Shown here in pieces: positions 2,339 through 9,172 of a stretch of 21,416 bases of DNA (position 1 is its first letter; every line of letters begins with the position of its first letter). The DNA comes from a virus. Where the stretch lies: the IMG/VR virus record IMGVR_UViG_3300025122_000194, positions 1-21,416 of that record; one strand, written 5' to 3'. The notes beneath the pieces are model-generated. The model had not been told where the DNA came from. It saw nothing but the letters and a program-made list of their open reading frames with translations, and did no database searches. The position numbers and the translations under genes were made by a program.

Positions 2339-2967
2339 ATTAGTTTTACTCCATATTTTTTAATTTCTTTTTCAGTCAGACTCACTCCAAAACGAGGATC
2401 TGCGGGAATTTTTCCATTTTCCAACTTTTCTTGTAATCCATAAAATTGTCTTTTGACCTTTGGAATTAAAATATCTAAAACTTTTGTTGCAGGCATTACC
2501 CATAATTCGACTGGGAAACCTTTTTCCACGCGTGCAAGATAGTGCATATGGTATTTGCCAATTTTTTCCTCTCTAAGATATTTTTCCTGCTCAGGCCAAG
2601 TATCCTTGTTGGATATTCCATTATAAGTGGCCTGAAGTTTGGGTTGAATTGTCGATTTAAACTCAACACCTCTGTCTTCAGTGTCAAAACCATCGGCGCC
2701 ACTCTTGGTGGGCGCAATAGTAAACCCTAAGATGTTAGCTATGATAATTTCTCCTCCTCTATTATAATTTGTAGGATCCCCCCAATTGTTATCATCGCAT
2801 CTGTTAGCAGCTGCGCTCCACTCAAAGGCAAACCTATCTTCTTCCGTATCAAAGTGACATTCCATGAACTCATTGTACTTTTTCAACGTTTCTTCATCAA
2901 TTATCAAAATTTTCTTGTTATGCTGCACCAACAACCTCTCATTTATATTATGAACACCATTGTACAT
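2335..2967 (-). CDS. Putative PD-(D/E)XK nuclease, restriction-endonuclease-like
   Basis: The product of 210 residues has the segment G-A-D92-G-F followed ten residues after D92 by E102-F-K104-S-T. This is the spacing of the D...ExK catalytic core of PD-(D/E)XK nucleases. An upstream helix with E73 could supply a further metal ligand. The ATG at 2967..2965 overlaps the TGA of the exonuclease gene and has a good GAAGGA ribosome site seven bases upstream. It is therefore preferred over a TTG at 3024 that would add 19 residues inside the exonuclease. The gene overlaps the ParB-like gene by ATGA, and a methylase follows, so a type II restriction role is plausible. Other PD-(D/E)XK functions (repair nuclease, host DNA degradation) remain possible. 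The family assignment rests on the motif only. Confidence 0.6.
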   Translation of the reverse strand: MYNGVHNINERLLVQHNKKILIIDEETLKKYNEFMECHFDTEEDRFAFEWSAAANRCDDNNWGDPTNYNRGGEIIIANILGFTIAPTKSGADGFDTEDRGVEFKSTIQPKLQATYNGISNKDTWPEQEKYLREEKIGKYHMHYLARVEKGFPVELWVMPATKVLDILIPKVKRQFYGLQEKLENGKIPADPRFGVSLTEKEIKKYGVKLI

Positions 2968-3932
2968 CACTTTTCCTTCGTTGTCAAGCAAATTCTTTTC
3001 ATTGTTGCAAACATTTCTGACCAATCGTATGCACCAATGCCATCTTCAATCATCAATCCAATGCACTGAGTCTTATTCAGTTCTGGTGTCATCTCTTTGA
3101 TCGCGTATTTGACCTTTTGACTTGCTTGCACTGAAACCAGTGGCGTGTACAGCTGCATCATCTTATAATTTCTTATTATTTTCTTCTCGCCACTCAAAAT
3201 ATTATGATGAACTTTTAGAGGGTTTTCGACGTCTTCGCATGCTTTCAAGAGCGTCCCTATCTCGTGCGTATTTGCCTCTGAGAGGAACGGAAACCGCTTA
3301 GCAACGGTCTTTAAGCCGGCTCCCCCTACACCGTCTAGATTGTCGCTCTTATCGCCGCAAATGGCCCTTGCAAGGGCGAAGTTGTTAGGGTGTATACCAA
3401 ACGTCTCAACTAGTCTTTTGACGTTTATGAACTCAATTTGGACCGGCCTATAAACTACTGTTTTATCATTACAGAGTTGATAGAAGTCTTTATCACTTGA
3501 AATTATAACCTTCTGAGCGTCCTTGAAGTGCTGCATTTGTGCGACATAACTAATGATGTCATCTGCTTCTATTTGCTCAATCATGATCTGAGAAACTGGC
3601 AAACAATTGAGATAAGTTATCAGTCTCTGCTGTTGCCATACTTTATTTCTAAATTCTTCTTCCTCGGACATGGTTCGCACATTCCTATTGAGACGAACAG
3701 GTTTTCTGCCGTCTTTATAGCCTTTGTGCATTATCTTTCTTTTTCTGCTTCCATCAGGTCCATCCCAACAGATCACAATATGATCAGGCTTCATCTCTCT
3801 ACAATATTTTTGGAGAGATTTCAGAAAACCAAATGCGCCGCCGATGGGCTCACCATTCAAAGCAATCGAAGGATTTGATATGTAAGCTCTCAAATAAATG
3901 TTGAGGGCATCAATTATTAATACTCTTTTCAA
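2967..3932 (-). CDS. 5'-3' exonuclease / flap endonuclease (T4 RNase H / T5 FEN family)
   Basis: The 321-residue product has the full set of FEN-family metal and DNA sites. These are VLIIDALN (D8), WDGP (56-59) with the following basic arch (SRKRKIMHKGYK), EADD (122-125), SSDKDF (145-150), GDKSDN (193-198) and the helix-hairpin-helix loop GVGGAG (201-206). Enzymes of this family remove RNA primers and flaps during phage replication. The preferred start is TTG at 3932..3930, which forms a TTGA overlap with the stop of the preceding gene and has AGGTGG as ribosome site. A longer frame from TTG 3977 would add 15 unmatched residues. The product is a stand-alone exonuclease; the polymerase in this window lacks a fused 5'-3' domain, so this protein probably supplies that activity. 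Confidence 0.92.
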   Translation of the reverse strand: MKRVLIIDALNIYLRAYISNPSIALNGEPIGGAFGFLKSLQKYCREMKPDHIVICWDGPDGSRKRKIMHKGYKDGRKPVRLNRNVRTMSEEEEFRNKVWQQQRLITYLNCLPVSQIMIEQIEADDIISYVAQMQHFKDAQKVIISSDKDFYQLCNDKTVVYRPVQIEFINVKRLVETFGIHPNNFALARAICGDKSDNLDGVGGAGLKTVAKRFPFLSEANTHEIGTLLKACEDVENPLKVHHNILSGEKKIIRNYKMMQLYTPLVSVQASQKVKYAIKEMTPELNKTQCIGLMIEDGIGAYDWSEMFATMKRICLTTKEK

Positions 3933-4225
3933 AACCACCTTTTTTTTGGATAAAGTTTGTTGATCTCGTCCATGCAATCGCCCAACAAACGTTGATAAAA
4001 TATTTCATCTGTAATGTCTGATATTGGAGGAGTCCAAGATAATTTAAGTTTCCTTCTTCCTGCTTTAAGAGTTTGTCTTTCGTTGCAACCAAAAAGCGGA
4101 CCAGGAAGCTCTACGTTGATGAGTCTAAATTTCATTTTTGGGAAACATCCCGCGAGATCCTCTAAAAACCTATCTTCCATACTGTAATTAGAATCACAAT
4201 TTATAACATTCAAGCTTGCCGTCAT
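3929..4225 (-). CDS. Unknown protein, 98 aa
   Basis: I do not recognise this protein. It begins MTASLNVINC and ends KLYPKKRWF. A proline-rich middle (ELPGPLFG, SWTPPISD) is followed by a helical C-terminal part (DEIFYQRLLGDCMDEINKLY). No signal peptide, membrane segment or nucleotide-binding motif is visible. The ATG at 4225 lies inside the end of the deaminase gene (32 bases of overlap). An alternative ATG at 4180..4178 would start 14 bases after that stop and give 83 residues; neither has a clear ribosome site, so translational coupling is likely. The sequence AGGTGG near its stop doubles as the ribosome site of the exonuclease. Its place between nucleotide metabolism and replication genes suggests a DNA-related role, but this is inference. 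Confidence 0.65.
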   Translation of the reverse strand: MTASLNVINCDSNYSMEDRFLEDLAGCFPKMKFRLINVELPGPLFGCNERQTLKAGRRKLKLSWTPPISDITDEIFYQRLLGDCMDEINKLYPKKRWF

Positions 4226-4601
4226 CTGTAGTATAATATATCCTTTTTATTCCAACATGTTTTAAAGCTGTTTCGCACATAGAGCAAGGTTTACTCATTT
4301 TAAATTCACCTGCTCGATTAACTCTAACAACGTAAATATCTGTTCCTTGTGTTATAGATCTGTCTAAATTAAGTACCGCTGCCAATTCAGCATGCAGTGT
4401 TGATATTCCCTTGTCTCTTTCCCGAAATCTTTTTCCAAAAGAAGAGTAAGACCATTTATTATGAGCGGCATTAATGATGTTGCCGCCTTTAACCAAAACT
4501 GCGCCATGGCACGTTCGAGCTTCATCACTCTGTTGCGCCATCCGTTTGGCCAACGACAGATAACTTTGTATCTTCTTCGATATTTTCGTTTTCGATATCA
4601 T
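4194..4601 (-). CDS. Deoxycytidylate (dCMP) deaminase-like enzyme
   Basis: The product has the zinc-dependent cytidine/deoxycytidylate deaminase signature. HAE (70-72) supplies the zinc histidine and the catalytic glutamate, and PCSMC (105-109) gives the two zinc cysteines. A CHGAVLVKGG strand pair (31-40) comes before them. dCMP deaminases convert dCMP to dUMP and feed dTTP synthesis. At 135 residues it is slightly shorter than T4 Cd and lacks its extra zinc insertion. Other nucleoside deaminases of the superfamily cannot be excluded. The ATG at 4601 is chosen because it keeps the N-terminal helix (QSYLSLAKRMAQQSDEA) that the fold needs. A TTG at 4634 and an ATG at 4541 are possible. Its first 77 bases overlap the end of the recombinase gene. 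Confidence 0.8.
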   Translation of the reverse strand: MISKTKISKKIQSYLSLAKRMAQQSDEARTCHGAVLVKGGNIINAAHNKWSYSSFGKRFRERDKGISTLHAELAAVLNLDRSITQGTDIYVVRVNRAGEFKMSKPCSMCETALKHVGIKRIYYTTDDGKLECYKL

Positions 4602-5718
4602 AAAAATCTGCTGCTTCGCCTTGCCGCTTGTCAAATTTGAGGATGATCTCTTCCTCCATTATTTCTAATACTCTATCACGAAATTTCTGATTTGTCAACA
4701 TATTTTTCCATTTTGATGGTTGAAATTTCTCTTCTGTACCATCTTTGTATTGGAGAGAATACCATGCTCCACTTTGCTTAAGATACTCAGAACCTTTGAT
4801 GGCCTCAAACCAACTTTCTTCATCTTGGATGCCAATATCATCGCCCCAAAGAATTTTAAAACTGGCTTGTCTACCTTGAGTCCCAAAACGACTTTTTTTG
4901 AGAGTAGCTTTGATCTCTGATCCGACTCTAAACCCTCTTTCGTCAAGTACAAAACTTGCTTTTGCTTTACGTCCTGTAAGCCAAATACGAAGAGAATAGG
5001 AATAGATCATGGCTTTTCCTCCAGGCGTCATATAAGGTTCAACCATCGCTTCAGAAGGGCTTCTGGTGATGTTTGTCTTAAGTTGATTAAGAACTAGAAA
5101 TGTAGATTGACTATTCGCAATTGGAACAGTTAATTTGGACATTCCTTTGGCAAGAATACGAGCTTTAACAGCCATTGAGGATAGCGGATTAAAGTCGCCT
5201 TCGACATCACTAACGGATGGAGTCAGAGCAAGACTATCCCAGATAAAGAGCATACGATTATCATTATTAGCAAGAAGATCTTCAATTGTTTCAAGAACGA
5301 ACTCCACGCTCTGTGCCTGAATATAAAGCAGCTCTTCTAAATCGCAACCAGTTCGTTCTAAAAACGTTGGATCGATTGCTGATTCAGAATCAAAATAGAT
5401 TACATCGATGCCCATTTTTTGAGCATTGGCAGCAACCTGAGCAGCCATGTAAGACTTTCCAGTTGATTCTAATCCGGCAATTTCAACAACCTTTCCTACT
5501 GGTACACCTGTTAGGCGGCCGCGACAAATAATTGAATCCAACCACCGTGATCCGGTTGGAATCCAATCCTTTACCTCTGTTGGGTTAGCATCGTTTAAAT
5601 TGTGTGCAACAGACATGCCAGCCTTTTTATTGATAAGACTTCGCATGTCTGACATAGAAAGTTTGCCTGCTTTAGTTTTTGTTTTTCTTGCCATTTTATT
5701 TCTATTTTTATTCGACAT
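4525..5718 (-). CDS. RecA/UvsX-type DNA recombinase
   Basis: The 397-residue product has a RecA core. The Walker A motif is GLESTGKS (82-89), the catalytic glutamate sits in YFDSE (E112), the Walker B segment is MLFIWD (156-161), and the L2-like loop is KTNITRSPSEAMVEPYMTPG. The N-terminal 45 residues are basic (KMARKTKTKAGK) and the C-terminus is acidic (NENIEEDTK), a usual arrangement for recombinases that interact with a single-stranded DNA-binding protein. It would form filaments on single-stranded DNA for recombination-dependent replication and repair. The Walker A is closer to bacterial RecA (GPESSGKT) than to T4 UvsX. The ATG at 5718 overlaps the end of the FKBP gene by 11 bases; a second ATG at 5694 is possible, and neither has a strong ribosome site. 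It is the third gene behind the promoter at 7052-7080. Confidence 0.93.
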   Translation of the reverse strand: MSNKNRNKMARKTKTKAGKLSMSDMRSLINKKAGMSVAHNLNDANPTEVKDWIPTGSRWLDSIICRGRLTGVPVGKVVEIAGLESTGKSYMAAQVAANAQKMGIDVIYFDSESAIDPTFLERTGCDLEELLYIQAQSVEFVLETIEDLLANNDNRMLFIWDSLALTPSVSDVEGDFNPLSSMAVKARILAKGMSKLTVPIANSQSTFLVLNQLKTNITRSPSEAMVEPYMTPGGKAMIYSYSLRIWLTGRKAKASFVLDERGFRVGSEIKATLKKSRFGTQGRQASFKILWGDDIGIQDEESWFEAIKGSEYLKQSGAWYSLQYKDGTEEKFQPSKWKNMLTNQKFRDRVLEIMEEEIILKFDKRQGEAADFYDIENENIEEDTKLSVVGQTDGATE

Positions 5719-6181
5719 TCAAAAGTTCAATTTCAAAATTCAAATTTTTGCCGGCAAGAGGATGATTAAAATCCAAAATAACAGTATCCTCGTTGACTTT
5801 GTCAATCCTCGCAATCACTGACTGGCCCTCGGCATCTTGTCCACGCACCATATTGTCAACCTCGAATTCAAAACCATTTGGGAAATTCGTTTGCGGTACA
5901 GTTTGAAAATTTTCAGGATTAATTTCCCCATATGCTTCTTTCGGCTCTACTTTAACTTTTTTAACTTCACCAATTTTCATCCCAGACAAAGCTGCGTCAA
6001 AACCAGAAATCAGTTCGCCGGAGCCCACCTCGAAAGATACGGCTTCTTCACGAACTCTGGAACTGTCAAATTCAGTACCATCATCAAATGTGCCAACGTA
6101 GTGTACACTTACCGTCTGCCCACTCTTAACCTTTTTACTTTTTGTTTTTTTACTTTTTGTTTTTTTACTTTTTGTACTCAT
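5708..6181 (-). CDS. FKBP-type peptidyl-prolyl isomerase, SlyD-like
   Basis: The 157-residue product has the FKBP core in two parts, about residues 20-88 (VHYVGTFDDGTEFDSS, FEVGSGELISGFDAALSGM) and 125-157. An insert-in-flap region lies between them. The SlyD hallmark NHPLAG (139-144) is present. Such enzymes are combined prolyl isomerases and chaperones in the cytoplasm. The C-terminal metal-binding histidine tail of E. coli SlyD is absent. The N-terminus instead has three copies of T-K-S-K-K/T-type repeats (residues 3-19), giving a strongly basic tail encoded by a 15-base tandem repeat. An AAAGGA ribosome site precedes the ATG. The gene sits between the single-stranded DNA-binding protein and recombinase genes, so its clients may be replication or recombination proteins. 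That is inference. Confidence 0.92.
   Translation of the reverse strand: MSTKSKKTKSKKTKSKKVKSGQTVSVHYVGTFDDGTEFDSSRVREEAVSFEVGSGELISGFDAALSGMKIGEVKKVKVEPKEAYGEINPENFQTVPQTNFPNGFEFEVDNMVRGQDAEGQSVIARIDKVNEDTVILDFNHPLAGKNLNFEIELLNVE
6131..6175 (-). repeat. 15-base tandem repeat, three copies
   Basis: Three consecutive 15-base units (6161-6175, 6146-6160, 6131-6145) encode the lysine-rich N-terminal tail of the SlyD-like protein. On the minus strand each reads ACAAAAAGTAAAAAA, and the last copy differs only in its final base. They are in frame, so copy-number changes would lengthen or shorten the tail by five residues without breaking the gene. The A runs also make the site prone to slippage. 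Confidence 0.9.
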
Positions 6182-6255: not shown

Positions 6256-6993
6256 TTACGAAAGAAGCTCACTGAAAGCTTTATCTACCGAATCTCCCGA
6301 TTCGGTGTTATACTTCTCCACATCAGAAGAATTATCGTCAACATTGCCCGATAAATATTCATCGAGAATGGTTTCAACGTCTCCCGGTGTTTTCCGCTCA
6401 AAGAGCGAGTCAAGATCCGGAATTGTATCCAGCCATTCAGCACATTGTGATTCTTCCTCACAAAGTGGCGAAGGGCGCCGGCGAGGAGTAATCTCCGTTT
6501 GAGGGAAGGATGCTCCTGCAGGCTTTCCATAGCGAATCACCAGATCAGTTCCAGTTTCATGATCTGTAATATCGCCATATTCAGGATTGAGGACAAGATT
6601 AAGTAGCTTCTCATAAGCCATCTTGCCAAACCCCCAAATACGCACACCTTTATCTTCTTCACCGCGTACTACCACAGGAGCGAAGAAGCGCTGACGTGCT
6701 GACAAAGACTTTGCCATCTTAATACTCTCTTCCGTTCCCTCCTTATAGAGTTTGCGAACAAAATTATCGAGTGCATCGTCTTCTCCAAAGTTCTTTTTCG
6801 GACTCAAGAACCCGGGGGCGTTTCCTACGTTGTAGTGAAACCAATAATCCTTGAAAGGATCCCCATCGGGAGTAGGAACGATGCGAATCGTTGTCTCCCC
6901 ATCTTGAGGGCGCCAGAAGTTCTCCCGTCCGCCACCGTTTTTATTATCTAGTTCGCTGCGTCGTGAACGCATTTTTTCCATATCAATACTCAT
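6256..6993 (-). CDS. Single-stranded DNA-binding protein, T4 gp32-like
   Basis: The 245-residue product begins MSIDMEKMRSRRSELDNK and continues with FWRPQDGETTIRIVPTPDGDPFKDYWFHYN. This is the opening expected of gp32-type OB-fold proteins of T4-related marine and environmental phages, including the short basic N-terminal segment used for cooperative binding. The core ends near residue 180 (PRRRPSPLCEEESQC). The C-terminal tail is acidic (GNVDDNSSDVEKYN onward, ending DKAFSELLS), which in this family recruits replication and recombination partners. The T4 zinc ligands are not evident; only two cysteines are visible in the C-terminal half. A near-perfect AAGGAG ribosome site lies seven bases before the ATG. 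It is the first gene after the promoter at 7052-7080 and its leader contains an 8-bp hairpin, so strong and possibly self-regulated expression is expected. Confidence 0.9.
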   Translation of the reverse strand: MSIDMEKMRSRRSELDNKNGGGRENFWRPQDGETTIRIVPTPDGDPFKDYWFHYNVGNAPGFLSPKKNFGEDDALDNFVRKLYKEGTEESIKMAKSLSARQRFFAPVVVRGEEDKGVRIWGFGKMAYEKLLNLVLNPEYGDITDHETGTDLVIRYGKPAGASFPQTEITPRRRPSPLCEEESQCAEWLDTIPDLDSLFERKTPGDVETILDEYLSGNVDDNSSDVEKYNTESGDSVDKAFSELLS

Positions 6994-7051: not shown

Positions 7052-7080
7052 ATAGTAACACAATGAATTCTGTTTGTCAA
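7052..7080 (-). promoter_or_regulatory. Sigma70-type promoter for the replication/recombination operon
   Basis: On the minus strand a perfect -35 TTGACA (7080-7075) is separated by exactly 17 bases from a -10 TACTAT (7057-7052). The -10 is preceded by TG one base upstream, an extended -10 element. Transcription would start near 7045 and read into the ssDNA-binding protein gene, then FKBP, recombinase, deaminase and exonuclease. The -35 overlaps the stop codon of the preceding gene. It is the best promoter match I see in the window and suggests early expression by host RNA polymerase. Confidence 0.8.
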
Positions 7081-7973
7081 GTGTTTTTTTCACTTTTTTG
7101 TCGTTGAATTTCTGATGAATGAGCGATTACGTATGAATAATCTTCTGCATATTTTGTTGCGAATATTCCGTAACCAGTCTTAACATCATTTTTAACTTGC
7201 TCTTTAATTTTTTTAAACAAATCACCGTCTTCTTCTAATTTTTTTTTGTTTATGGCATAATAGTAGCACAATTCTTTTATTTCGTCAAGGGAATAAAAGA
7301 ATTTTTTTTCTCCGGTCTCAAAGTTAATAAATCCGATAGTAGAAATCCTATTAATTTTGTCAGGTTCTGAAAATGTAGAAACTTCTGGCTCATTATGATT
7401 ATAAACGTTTATCATATGAAACGTTGAGACAATCATTTCGTTTAATCGATCATAATAGCCAATAACTGGAACTTCACCCAAATGCTTTTCAATTTCAGAG
7501 TTATTCACAAGATAAATCCTTTTAAAAACTCCAGATCTAGCATATTCTTGTAAAACGTTAAAAACAACCCACTCATGTTTAATTTTATCCGGTGAAAGAG
7601 ATTCTAATTCCGGCTTAATATATAAAATACTTATATCACAATCTTTTATTTGTTGTAATATGGCTAATGTGGCAGCAGAAACAGAATCAGATCCACTAAC
7701 AACAAAAAGTACTTCACCTTTTATGTTTCTAAAGAAATGACCCAAATTTGGACAATTTTTTTCATATTGTTCCGGGCTGTCTTGCTTTCTAAACCTGTAA
7801 ACACCGTCCTTCTCATATCCGCTATTTTCATCAACATCATAAGAAGCCCATGACCAATCGGTCTGGTCTAGATCATTGTCTACATTAATTTTATAAACTT
7901 TATACTGACTATAATTTAAAAACCCATCAGCAATATTGCAGCCTATCTCCCCTATACCAACAACACTATCCAT
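7077..7973 (-). CDS. Divergent tubulin/FtsZ-superfamily-like protein, 298 aa
   Basis: The order of elements follows the FtsZ nucleotide-binding domain. The segment SVVGIGEIGCNIADGF (3-18) matches the glycine-rich T1 loop (IGVGGGGGNAV in FtsZ), and YKVYKINVDN (24-33) matches FFAVNTD. GEVLFVVSGSDSVSAATLAI (86-105) lies where FtsZ has the T4 signature GGGTGTG, but only glycine and serine remnants are left. ISILYIKPE (114-122) corresponds to VAVVTKP, IYLVNNSEIEKHLG (153-166) to ITIPNDKLLKVLG, and YYDRLNEMI (173-181) to helix H7 with its guanine-contacting asparagine (N178). The catalytic T7 loop NxDxxD is not found. A small C-terminal domain (210-298) follows. ATG overlaps the polymerase stop as TAATG. 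The superfamily call is by eye; a Rossmann-type protein without GTPase activity is the main alternative. Confidence 0.55.
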   Translation of the reverse strand: MDSVVGIGEIGCNIADGFLNYSQYKVYKINVDNDLDQTDWSWASYDVDENSGYEKDGVYRFRKQDSPEQYEKNCPNLGHFFRNIKGEVLFVVSGSDSVSAATLAILQQIKDCDISILYIKPELESLSPDKIKHEWVVFNVLQEYARSGVFKRIYLVNNSEIEKHLGEVPVIGYYDRLNEMIVSTFHMINVYNHNEPEVSTFSEPDKINRISTIGFINFETGEKKFFYSLDEIKELCYYYAINKKKLEEDGDLFKKIKEQVKNDVKTGYGIFATKYAEDYSYVIAHSSEIQRQKSEKNT

Positions 7974-9172
7974 TATGAGAATAACTCCTTTAACTCTCCA
8001 AAATTTTTACCAGTTTTAATATTACTTTTAAACTTGCCAAATCTCGTATTGGTAAATTCATCTACAATATCTTTCATAAGATGTTTATCATCTTTGTGTA
8101 AATCAATAACTATGCTGTCATGTATACAAAAAGAAATATTAGACTTTCTATCTTTTAGTATATCATAAATTTTAATCATTTTTTGCAAAATAAGATCAGC
8201 ACATGTACTCTGAATGATATAATTTAATGCATGATGCTTATCTGCTGGAATTTCTCTGTTAAAACAAGTCCTTACCATTTTTCCATCCCAATATTCATTT
8301 AAAACTTTATCTTTGTCATACATCTTTCTTAACATTTTCTCATTCGAATGTTCTTTTGAATTATAAAGCCAAGCAAAAATAGAATTTTTAACTTCCTGTC
8401 GTGACAAAACTTTATTCTCAAACAAAAATCTTCTATTCCATTCGTGAATATCAATTGCCGGCTGATTCTTGTCTGACAGAGCTAACAAAGTTCTTAGTTC
8501 TGCTCCATTATAATCTAGCTCGACAAATAAATCATTATTTGGCTTGATAATAGAGCGGTACCTTTTCGGAAAAGTAAGAATTGGAAAACTATATTTTTTT
8601 GTTGTTAATCTTCCTGTTTTTGTGCCAAAGATATCGTATCTCACGTATGGCGAAATATTCTGAACTTTCTTTCTCCATTTTCTTGCTTCATGTTGAGTTA
8701 AAAAGGGTTTAAACTCGTCTATATCAATATTGAGTTTTTGTTGATTTATATCTTCAACCACTTTCGTTAACAAAGTTAAAAATCTCAAATTTCTGGGCGG
8801 CAAAAAATTTTCAAAAACGTGTTTTGTAATTCGATTCTTAATTTCACAGTATTCCAAAAGAAATTTTTCCGGAACCAAGTCATAGAAGCAATTATCGTCT
8901 AATGAAACCTTTGCTAAGTGAATCGATCTCATAAAAGCTTTTAGCTTATTATTAATCTTATCCCAGTCATCTTTTATACCGGAGGGGCAAACACTGTCAA
9001 GAGATTCGCCACCACATTGCAAATGGCCGTATCTAATTTCTCTATTCCTGAGAGAAGATGAGTAAGACCATGTTTTACTAATTCCTTCAGGAAGTTTGTC
9101 ATCAAAGTAAAGATTTCCGTCATAATATACTCCTGCACATTTATATTTATTATCCAATGTTTGAAATAACAT
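7973..9172 (-). CDS. Family A DNA polymerase, short form without exonuclease domain
   Basis: The 399-residue product contains the Pol I palm and fingers. FGTKTGRLT (182-190) corresponds to TATGRLSS, motif A is LDYNGAELR (219-227, catalytic D220), and motif B has R258, K262, F266 and Y270 at the exact four-residue spacing of the Pol I O helix. HHALNYIIQSTCADL precedes motif C, which reads CIHDSIVID (D352). The glutamate that usually follows this aspartate is a serine. No 3'-5' proofreading motifs and no 5'-3' exonuclease are present. Residues 1-100 match nothing I know. At 399 residues it is much shorter than the roughly 600-residue Klenow-type module. AAGG precedes the ATG by eight bases. It probably replicates the phage genome with the nearby exonuclease and ssDNA-binding protein, and would need a separate proofreading subunit or lack proofreading. 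Confidence 0.88.
   Translation of the reverse strand: MLFQTLDNKYKCAGVYYDGNLYFDDKLPEGISKTWSYSSSLRNREIRYGHLQCGGESLDSVCPSGIKDDWDKINNKLKAFMRSIHLAKVSLDDNCFYDLVPEKFLLEYCEIKNRITKHVFENFLPPRNLRFLTLLTKVVEDINQQKLNIDIDEFKPFLTQHEARKWRKKVQNISPYVRYDIFGTKTGRLTTKKYSFPILTFPKRYRSIIKPNNDLFVELDYNGAELRTLLALSDKNQPAIDIHEWNRRFLFENKVLSRQEVKNSIFAWLYNSKEHSNEKMLRKMYDKDKVLNEYWDGKMVRTCFNREIPADKHHALNYIIQSTCADLILQKMIKIYDILKDRKSNISFCIHDSIVIDLHKDDKHLMKDIVDEFTNTRFGKFKSNIKTGKNFGELKELFS

Follow-up and report, generated by a model that had tools for sequence, protein, structure and literature searches.

The stretch of DNA analyzed here, which we call the window, is the whole of a virus fragment of 21.4 kb (21,416 nucleotides). In the direction of transcription, genes for the tail sheath, tube and baseplate are followed by a family-A DNA polymerase gene (polA), by the gene that concerns us here, and by a gene for a gp32-type SSB; beyond these come genes for FKBP, UvsX, a deaminase and FEN, and then ParB-like and methylase genes. 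The polymerase gene (7973..9172, minus strand) encodes 399 amino acids, matches PF00476 at E 2.1e-15, and is the neighbor of our gene in all informative loci. On the downstream side the conserved neighbor is the SSB (phrog_1192, E 1.8e-24; 6256..6993, minus strand). The UvsX-like recombinase (phrog_97, E 1.2e-56; 4525..5718, minus strand) and the 5'-3' exonuclease FEN (PF02739, E 3.6e-28; 2967..3977, minus strand) belong to the same replication/recombination cluster, and synteny supports all three of these assignments. An FKBP-type peptidyl-prolyl isomerase, which many but not all relatives have, is encoded between SSB and UvsX at 5708-6181.

The gene under study occupies 7077..7973 of the minus strand, an open reading frame of 298 amino acids that starts with an ATG at 7973. 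A sequence-only reading of this DNA, which stated no strand, had proposed that the product is a divergent tubulin/FtsZ relative and that its gene is coupled to the DNA polymerase gene by TAATG. The junction is indeed of this kind: the polA stop and the start of our gene share one base, an AAGGAG-like ribosome site lies ahead, and the polA-TUB order (TUB being the gene under study) is conserved across the family.

The window protein alone gave no Pfam match and did not reach the cut-offs of PF00091 or of the NCBIfam ftsZ model; its single-sequence matches in PHROGs (an unknown family, E 0.012) and, by phmmer, in the PDB (UvrC, E 0.034) were judged to be due to chance. A tblastn search of 50,697 phage records with this protein found no match, and pattern and tblastn searches of GTDB genomes found neither a cellular source nor a provirus copy. 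Relatives came instead from IMG/VR. Of the 27 found first, 22 sequences make up the alignment of what we call family A1; a profile search extended the set to 155 relatives, and a profile that includes the most divergent members to at least 589 IMG/VR stretches. The family has no significant match in Pfam, PHROGs or NCBIfam. One relative matched Vibrio phage GR11A (E 0.02), but the matching stretch, IGVGASITDG, lies in an unrelated, probably hydrolase-like protein, and we regard this match too as chance. The UvsX of the window is at best 33% identical to any phage record. The lineage, one of uncultivated T4-like marine phages, has no close cultured member.

In every listed locus that spans the neighbors, the A1 gene lies between polA and SSB, in relatives that range from 96% down to 33% identity. 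The order conserved among the listed loci is polA-TUB-SSB-(FKBP)-UvsX-FEN, with UvsX and FEN usual, and all 11 of the 11 large contigs that encode a close homolog of the window polymerase carry A1. In a sister lineage with divergent polymerases the polA-SSB slot is filled by other genes (L249-L254), and A1 is therefore clade-specific. The occupant of that slot in several sister-lineage contigs is an ORF whose start (PAVVLDVETTGL) resembles a 3'-5' exonuclease.

A1 is a real gene under purifying selection: dN/dS is 0.09 against the 96%-identical relative and 0.09-0.16 against relatives of 57-66% identity. Averaged over 65 loci, identity is 48% for A1, 55% for PolA, 69% for SSB and 80% for UvsX. 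A1 thus diverges faster than its operon neighbors, and yet purifying selection holds.

What kind of protein occupies this slot? A template-free AF2 prediction on the A1 family alignment gave a model with a pLDDT of 87.6 and a pTM of 0.88. Structure prediction followed by a Foldseek search was the check that the sequence-only reading had named, and the outcome bears out the kinship that it proposed: the best 50 matches in the PDB are all FtsZ, TubZ, CetZ or tubulin (E 1.5e-11 to 2.3e-9), with TM-scores by query of 0.57-0.68 and 10-13% identity in the structure alignments. The model has the two domains joined by helix H7. Among viral structures (BFVD), the eight matches at E <= 1e-3 are phage FtsZ, PhuZ or tubulin, or are uninformatively named, and Rossmann-type folds appear only from about E 8e-3. 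By its predicted structure, then, the A1 protein is a compact (~280-300 amino acids) member of the tubulin/FtsZ fold superfamily.

The support that sequence comparison lends to this fold is weak but in register. Three of the 22 aligned members match the NCBIfam ftsZ model (TIGR00065) weakly, with a best E of 0.049, and two of the 22 match PF00091 (best E 0.15); when whole contigs were searched, PF00091 matched three relatives at their T1 region (E 0.007-0.04). In hhalign comparisons, T1, T4, T6 and H7 of A1 align in register with those of a canonical phage family, A2 (see below), at E 2.6e-4, while T4 and T6 are in register with E. coli FtsZ alone at E 0.45.

The motifs quoted in the sequence-only reading, GIGEIGCN, SGSDSVSA, NNSEIE and LNE, are all present and stand in the order of FtsZ. 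We counted conservation over 147 distinct A1 members, consisting of 82 close relatives and 65 members of a second clade (L295-L374). Loop T1, GIGEIGCN (residues 6-13; 7935..7958, minus strand), provides in GIGEIGC the glycine-rich nucleotide loop of the superfamily, with G6 and G8 97-98% conserved (n=147). A KINVDN segment follows at residues 28-33, and the T3 region is replaced by a clade-specific insert (residues 34-54; 7812..7874, minus strand) that is gapped in most relatives and coincides with a low-confidence part of the model (pLDDT blocks of 65 and 54). This insert of about 20 residues, after strand S2 and where loop T3 would be, is seen only in the clade of the window. The T4 position, SGSDSVSA (residues 93-100; 7674..7697, minus strand), is degenerate, G94 being its sole glycine.

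Beyond T4, the family signature QEYARSG (residues 142-148; 7530..7550, minus strand) lies at the end of a helix that spans residues 128-146, and Q142, R146 and S147 are invariant. The T6-like NNSEIE (residues 157-162; 7488..7505, minus strand) contains N158, which is 97% conserved, and the central helix H7 (residues 173-192; 7398..7457, minus strand) contains N178, also at 97% and within the LNE of residues 177-179, along with the invariant H186 and N189. N158 and N178 are the T6 and H7 asparagines of the superfamily, the latter of which is predicted to contact the base. The T7/H8 region (residues 193-209; 7347..7397, minus strand) has no NxDxxD and no helix H8; neither H8 nor H9 is seen as a helix in the model. 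The residues conserved at 97-100% over the 147 members are G6, G8, G94, P121, Q142, R146, S147, N158, N178, H186, N189 and T273. By region, conservation is 0.72 for T1 and for H7, 0.66 for the QEYARSG helix, 0.48 for T7/H8 and 0.21 for T3 and the insert, which leaves T7/H8 second-lowest after the T3 region.

Neither hallmark of an active GTPase, the GGGTG[ST]G of T4 or the NxDxxD of T7, is found in the window protein. The loss of T4 glycines claimed in the earlier reading holds for the window copy but not for most of its close relatives: 60 of the 82 keep G94, G96 and G100, as a GGSGxxSG of the GxGxxxG type. The window copy is a degenerate member of a group in which most close relatives retain a T4-like GxGxxxG. 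None of the 65 second-clade members has the three glycines; in that clade T4 reads GSSxSSNY and T1 reads GxGNAASAI, motifs that are constrained rather than random and so may bind something else. A tree built without the T4 columns shows nine or more changes in the glycine state of T4, and T4-dependent catalysis therefore cannot be what keeps the A1 gene.

The absence of NxDxxD, also claimed earlier, extends beyond the window, since the motif is conserved nowhere in A1 and no column among residues 193-209 shows a conserved acid. In 42 of the 82 close relatives, though not in the window, residues 203 and 206 form an acidic pair that could be a residual DxxD; most members of the second clade have Lys or Arg at 203. 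The degenerate hydrolysis loops of the window protein are in this way a recurrent feature of a family of at least 589. Retention of the fold, loss of the hydrolysis residues and selection are seen together, by sequence, in the window and in the second clade, while many close relatives retain some of the residues. Both faces of the canonical longitudinal interface that sense the gamma-phosphate are relaxed, while the putative base-binding asparagine and the end of the QEYARSG helix are not.

A second, more conventional tubulin-like family, likewise uncatalogued, occurs in some of the same genomes. PF00091 identified a separate ORF in the contigs of two relatives, with AGGGGGTGS and a T7-like FDSKDLE, and this ORF defines family A2, found in at least 107 IMG/VR contigs of up to 281 kb. 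Its members include L104 (G002:C1:103389-104480, minus strand) and L109 (10001-11092), and the T4 and T7 of the family look intact. The A2 profile matches E. coli FtsZ at E 4.3e-9, and an AF2 model of A2 (pLDDT 88.8) matches CetZ, TubZ and FtsZ at E ~3e-20; no match to A2 was found in the phage records. The N terminus of the A2 proteins is extended by an acidic stretch in which FDFVxxY is conserved. A1 and A2 occur together in 7 of 40 large contigs. However, two near-complete genomes collinear with G002, namely G006 (184 kb) and G007 (193 kb), have A1 and lack A2, and the genes on either side of A2 in G002 are immediate neighbors in G006. These genomes rule out an obligatory A1-A2 heterodimer: A2 is an optional companion, not an obligatory partner.

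What, then, does A1 do? The best explanation, to which we assign a probability of roughly 0.5, is that A1 is a structural or adaptor protein associated with replication, for which GTP hydrolysis is not required. Translated together with the replication enzymes as a core gene of the lineage, such a protein may still bind guanine nucleotide, would have little or no hydrolytic activity toward it, and would form no canonical dynamic filament of the FtsZ type. Its place of action would be the site of phage replication, where it might form a static assembly or bind a partner that takes part in replication, presumably through the family-specific segments (QEYARSG, the HxxN of H7 and the C-terminal YYYAIN region). 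A replication role is favored by the fixed slot in the replication operon, although operon position is not proof of such a role. The near-complete genomes that have no canonical tubulin gene and still carry A1 also speak for this explanation. The relaxed T3 and T7 loops argue against a canonical dynamic filament, and either treadmilling or dynamic instability of the canonical kind seems unlikely for the window protein and the second clade. Considering that T4 is plausible in 60 of the 82 close relatives and that a possible T7 acidic pair is present in 42 of them, part of the A1 family may still be GTPases. A more specific version of this explanation, which we offer tentatively and at somewhat less than even odds, is that the tubulin fold has been exapted as a component of the replisome or replication site, with GTP hydrolysis dispensable, a new conserved surface, and the GSSxSSNY clade loop binding another ligand or none.

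Could A1 instead be a true filament-forming phage tubulin, similar to PhuZ or TubZ, that positions phage DNA or capsids by slow GTP-dependent assembly in spite of its unusual loops? The complete two-domain fold would suit such a protein, as would the GxGxxxG in most close relatives, the acidic pair at 203/206 in half of them, and the Foldseek matches to PhuZ-type phage proteins. We nonetheless think it unlikely: no T7 acid is strictly conserved, the T3 region is replaced, the model has no helix H8, the second clade combines GSSxSSNY at T4 with Lys or Arg at 203, and a canonical tubulin-like GTPase is encoded separately in some of the genomes. Furthermore, when the shell protein of the phage nucleus, 201phi2-1 gp105, was compared by phmmer with four near-complete genomes from this lineage, nothing matched at E <= 10, a search that a very distant homolog could escape, and this result makes a PhuZ-like nucleus role unlikely.

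Another alternative is that A1 is a decoy that binds host FtsZ and caps or poisons its filaments, thereby blocking division early in infection; it might, for example, offer host FtsZ the nucleotide-side face while the T7 side is missing. The pattern of losses is compatible with this proposal (T7 gone, T1 and the H7 asparagine kept), and A1 outpaces its operon neighbors in divergence, as expected of a protein that tracks a host target. Phage inhibitors of FtsZ are also common, as exemplified by lambda Kil (PMC3961180), T5 Hdi (PMC10714956) and T7 Gp0.4 (PMC13423816), but the known inhibitors are small, unrelated proteins without an FtsZ fold. Moreover, a gene for host takeover would not usually keep to one slot, as A1 does between polA and SSB in the listed loci; the faces needed for FtsZ mimicry, T3 and T7, are the least conserved, and the dN/dS values give no sign of positive selection. 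On balance, a decoy role seems doubtful.

Perhaps A1 is the non-hydrolyzing partner subunit of A2, either within a heteropolymer or as a cap, given that seven large contigs hold both genes and that several of these show the most degenerate T4 loops; with G006 and G007 getting by without A2, we consider this highly improbable. A link between T4 decay and the presence of A2 looked striking in a simple table (1/6 vs 6/7), but the tree leaves at most 2-4 independent pairs, so that the comparison has no significance and the link no support. Finally, single sequences give weak Rossmann-type Pfam matches (TrkA_N, E 0.0098, in 5 of the 22 members), but the idea that A1 is not a tubulin at all, and is instead a plain Rossmann protein that binds nucleotides and has a GxGxxG loop similar to T1, is already contradicted by the modeled fold and its PDB and BFVD matches and is hardly credible.

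How does A1 compare with known systems? The protein resembles FtsZ in its two-domain fold with H7, its T1 of the GxGxxGxN type, its T6 and H7 asparagines and its best PDB matches, and differs in having no T3 loop of the GxGxNP type, a degenerate or rewritten T4 and no conserved NxDxxD. With PhuZ and phiKZ TubZ it shares a phage-encoded tubulin fold, and the search among viral structures matched PhuZ of phage Noxifer at E 1.3e-6. A catalytic Asp in T7 and a C-terminal tail for polymerization are features of PhuZ-type proteins (PMC3678025); unlike the PhuZ phages, those of the A1 lineage carry sheath, tube and baseplate genes of the T4 type together with UvsX. The likeness to TubZ, which serves plasmid and phage DNA segregation, is one of fold only (4ei7 and 2xka are among the Foldseek matches), whereas A1 has no sequence family match, sits in another gene context and has lost T7. 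FtsZl1 (Makarova and Koonin 2010, PMC2875224) is likewise a divergent branch of the superfamily in which parts of the canonical machinery went unrecognized, but it is cellular, is encoded beside vWA and kinase genes, and has an unrecognizable T6-H7, whereas the phage-borne A1 keeps T6 and H7 and loses T3, T4 and T7. AlpC of prophage CGP3, an actin-like protein with a co-transcribed adaptor, is needed for efficient phage DNA replication (PMC4446434). It is a functional analog only, which shows that a cytoskeletal protein of a phage can serve DNA replication, and differs from A1 in its actin fold, its active nucleotide hydrolysis and its lack of homology.

Phage tubulins and divergent FtsZ families such as FtsZl1 (PMC2875224) are thus already known kinds; the libraries and the open-access literature searched yielded no tubulin-fold family that resides in a replication operon and recurrently loses its hydrolysis loops. 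The phage tubulins of the cited literature, PhuZ and TubZ, are active GTPases that move things, and the A1 family, with its at least 589 environmental members, offers a natural series for learning what the tubulin fold does without hydrolysis. A gene with no family entry in Pfam, PHROGs or NCBIfam, from a phage group widespread in the ocean, can now be assigned a fold. It appears that a dynamic filament protein was turned into a core replication-associated part while its GTPase machinery was repeatedly worn away. If the exaptation version is true, A1 would be the first tubulin from a replication operon and would form a viral pseudo-GTPase branch of the superfamily. The A2 companion makes the role of each protein testable inside one genome.

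The polymerase next to A1 has peculiarities of its own. At 399 amino acids, the PolA of the window (7973-9172) is very short, with FEN encoded separately and no recognizable proofreading domain, and a tblastn search of the 50,697 phage records gave no match to it, though the whole lineage conserves PolA. G002 also encodes a DnaE-type DNA polymerase III alpha of 1135 amino acids (L275:1853-5257), which is about 66% identical in four genomes, so that two polymerase families, the DnaE type and the small PolA, are found in one phage. Because the DnaE-type polymerase III alpha is present in these genomes, the PolA adjacent to A1 need not be the main replicase.
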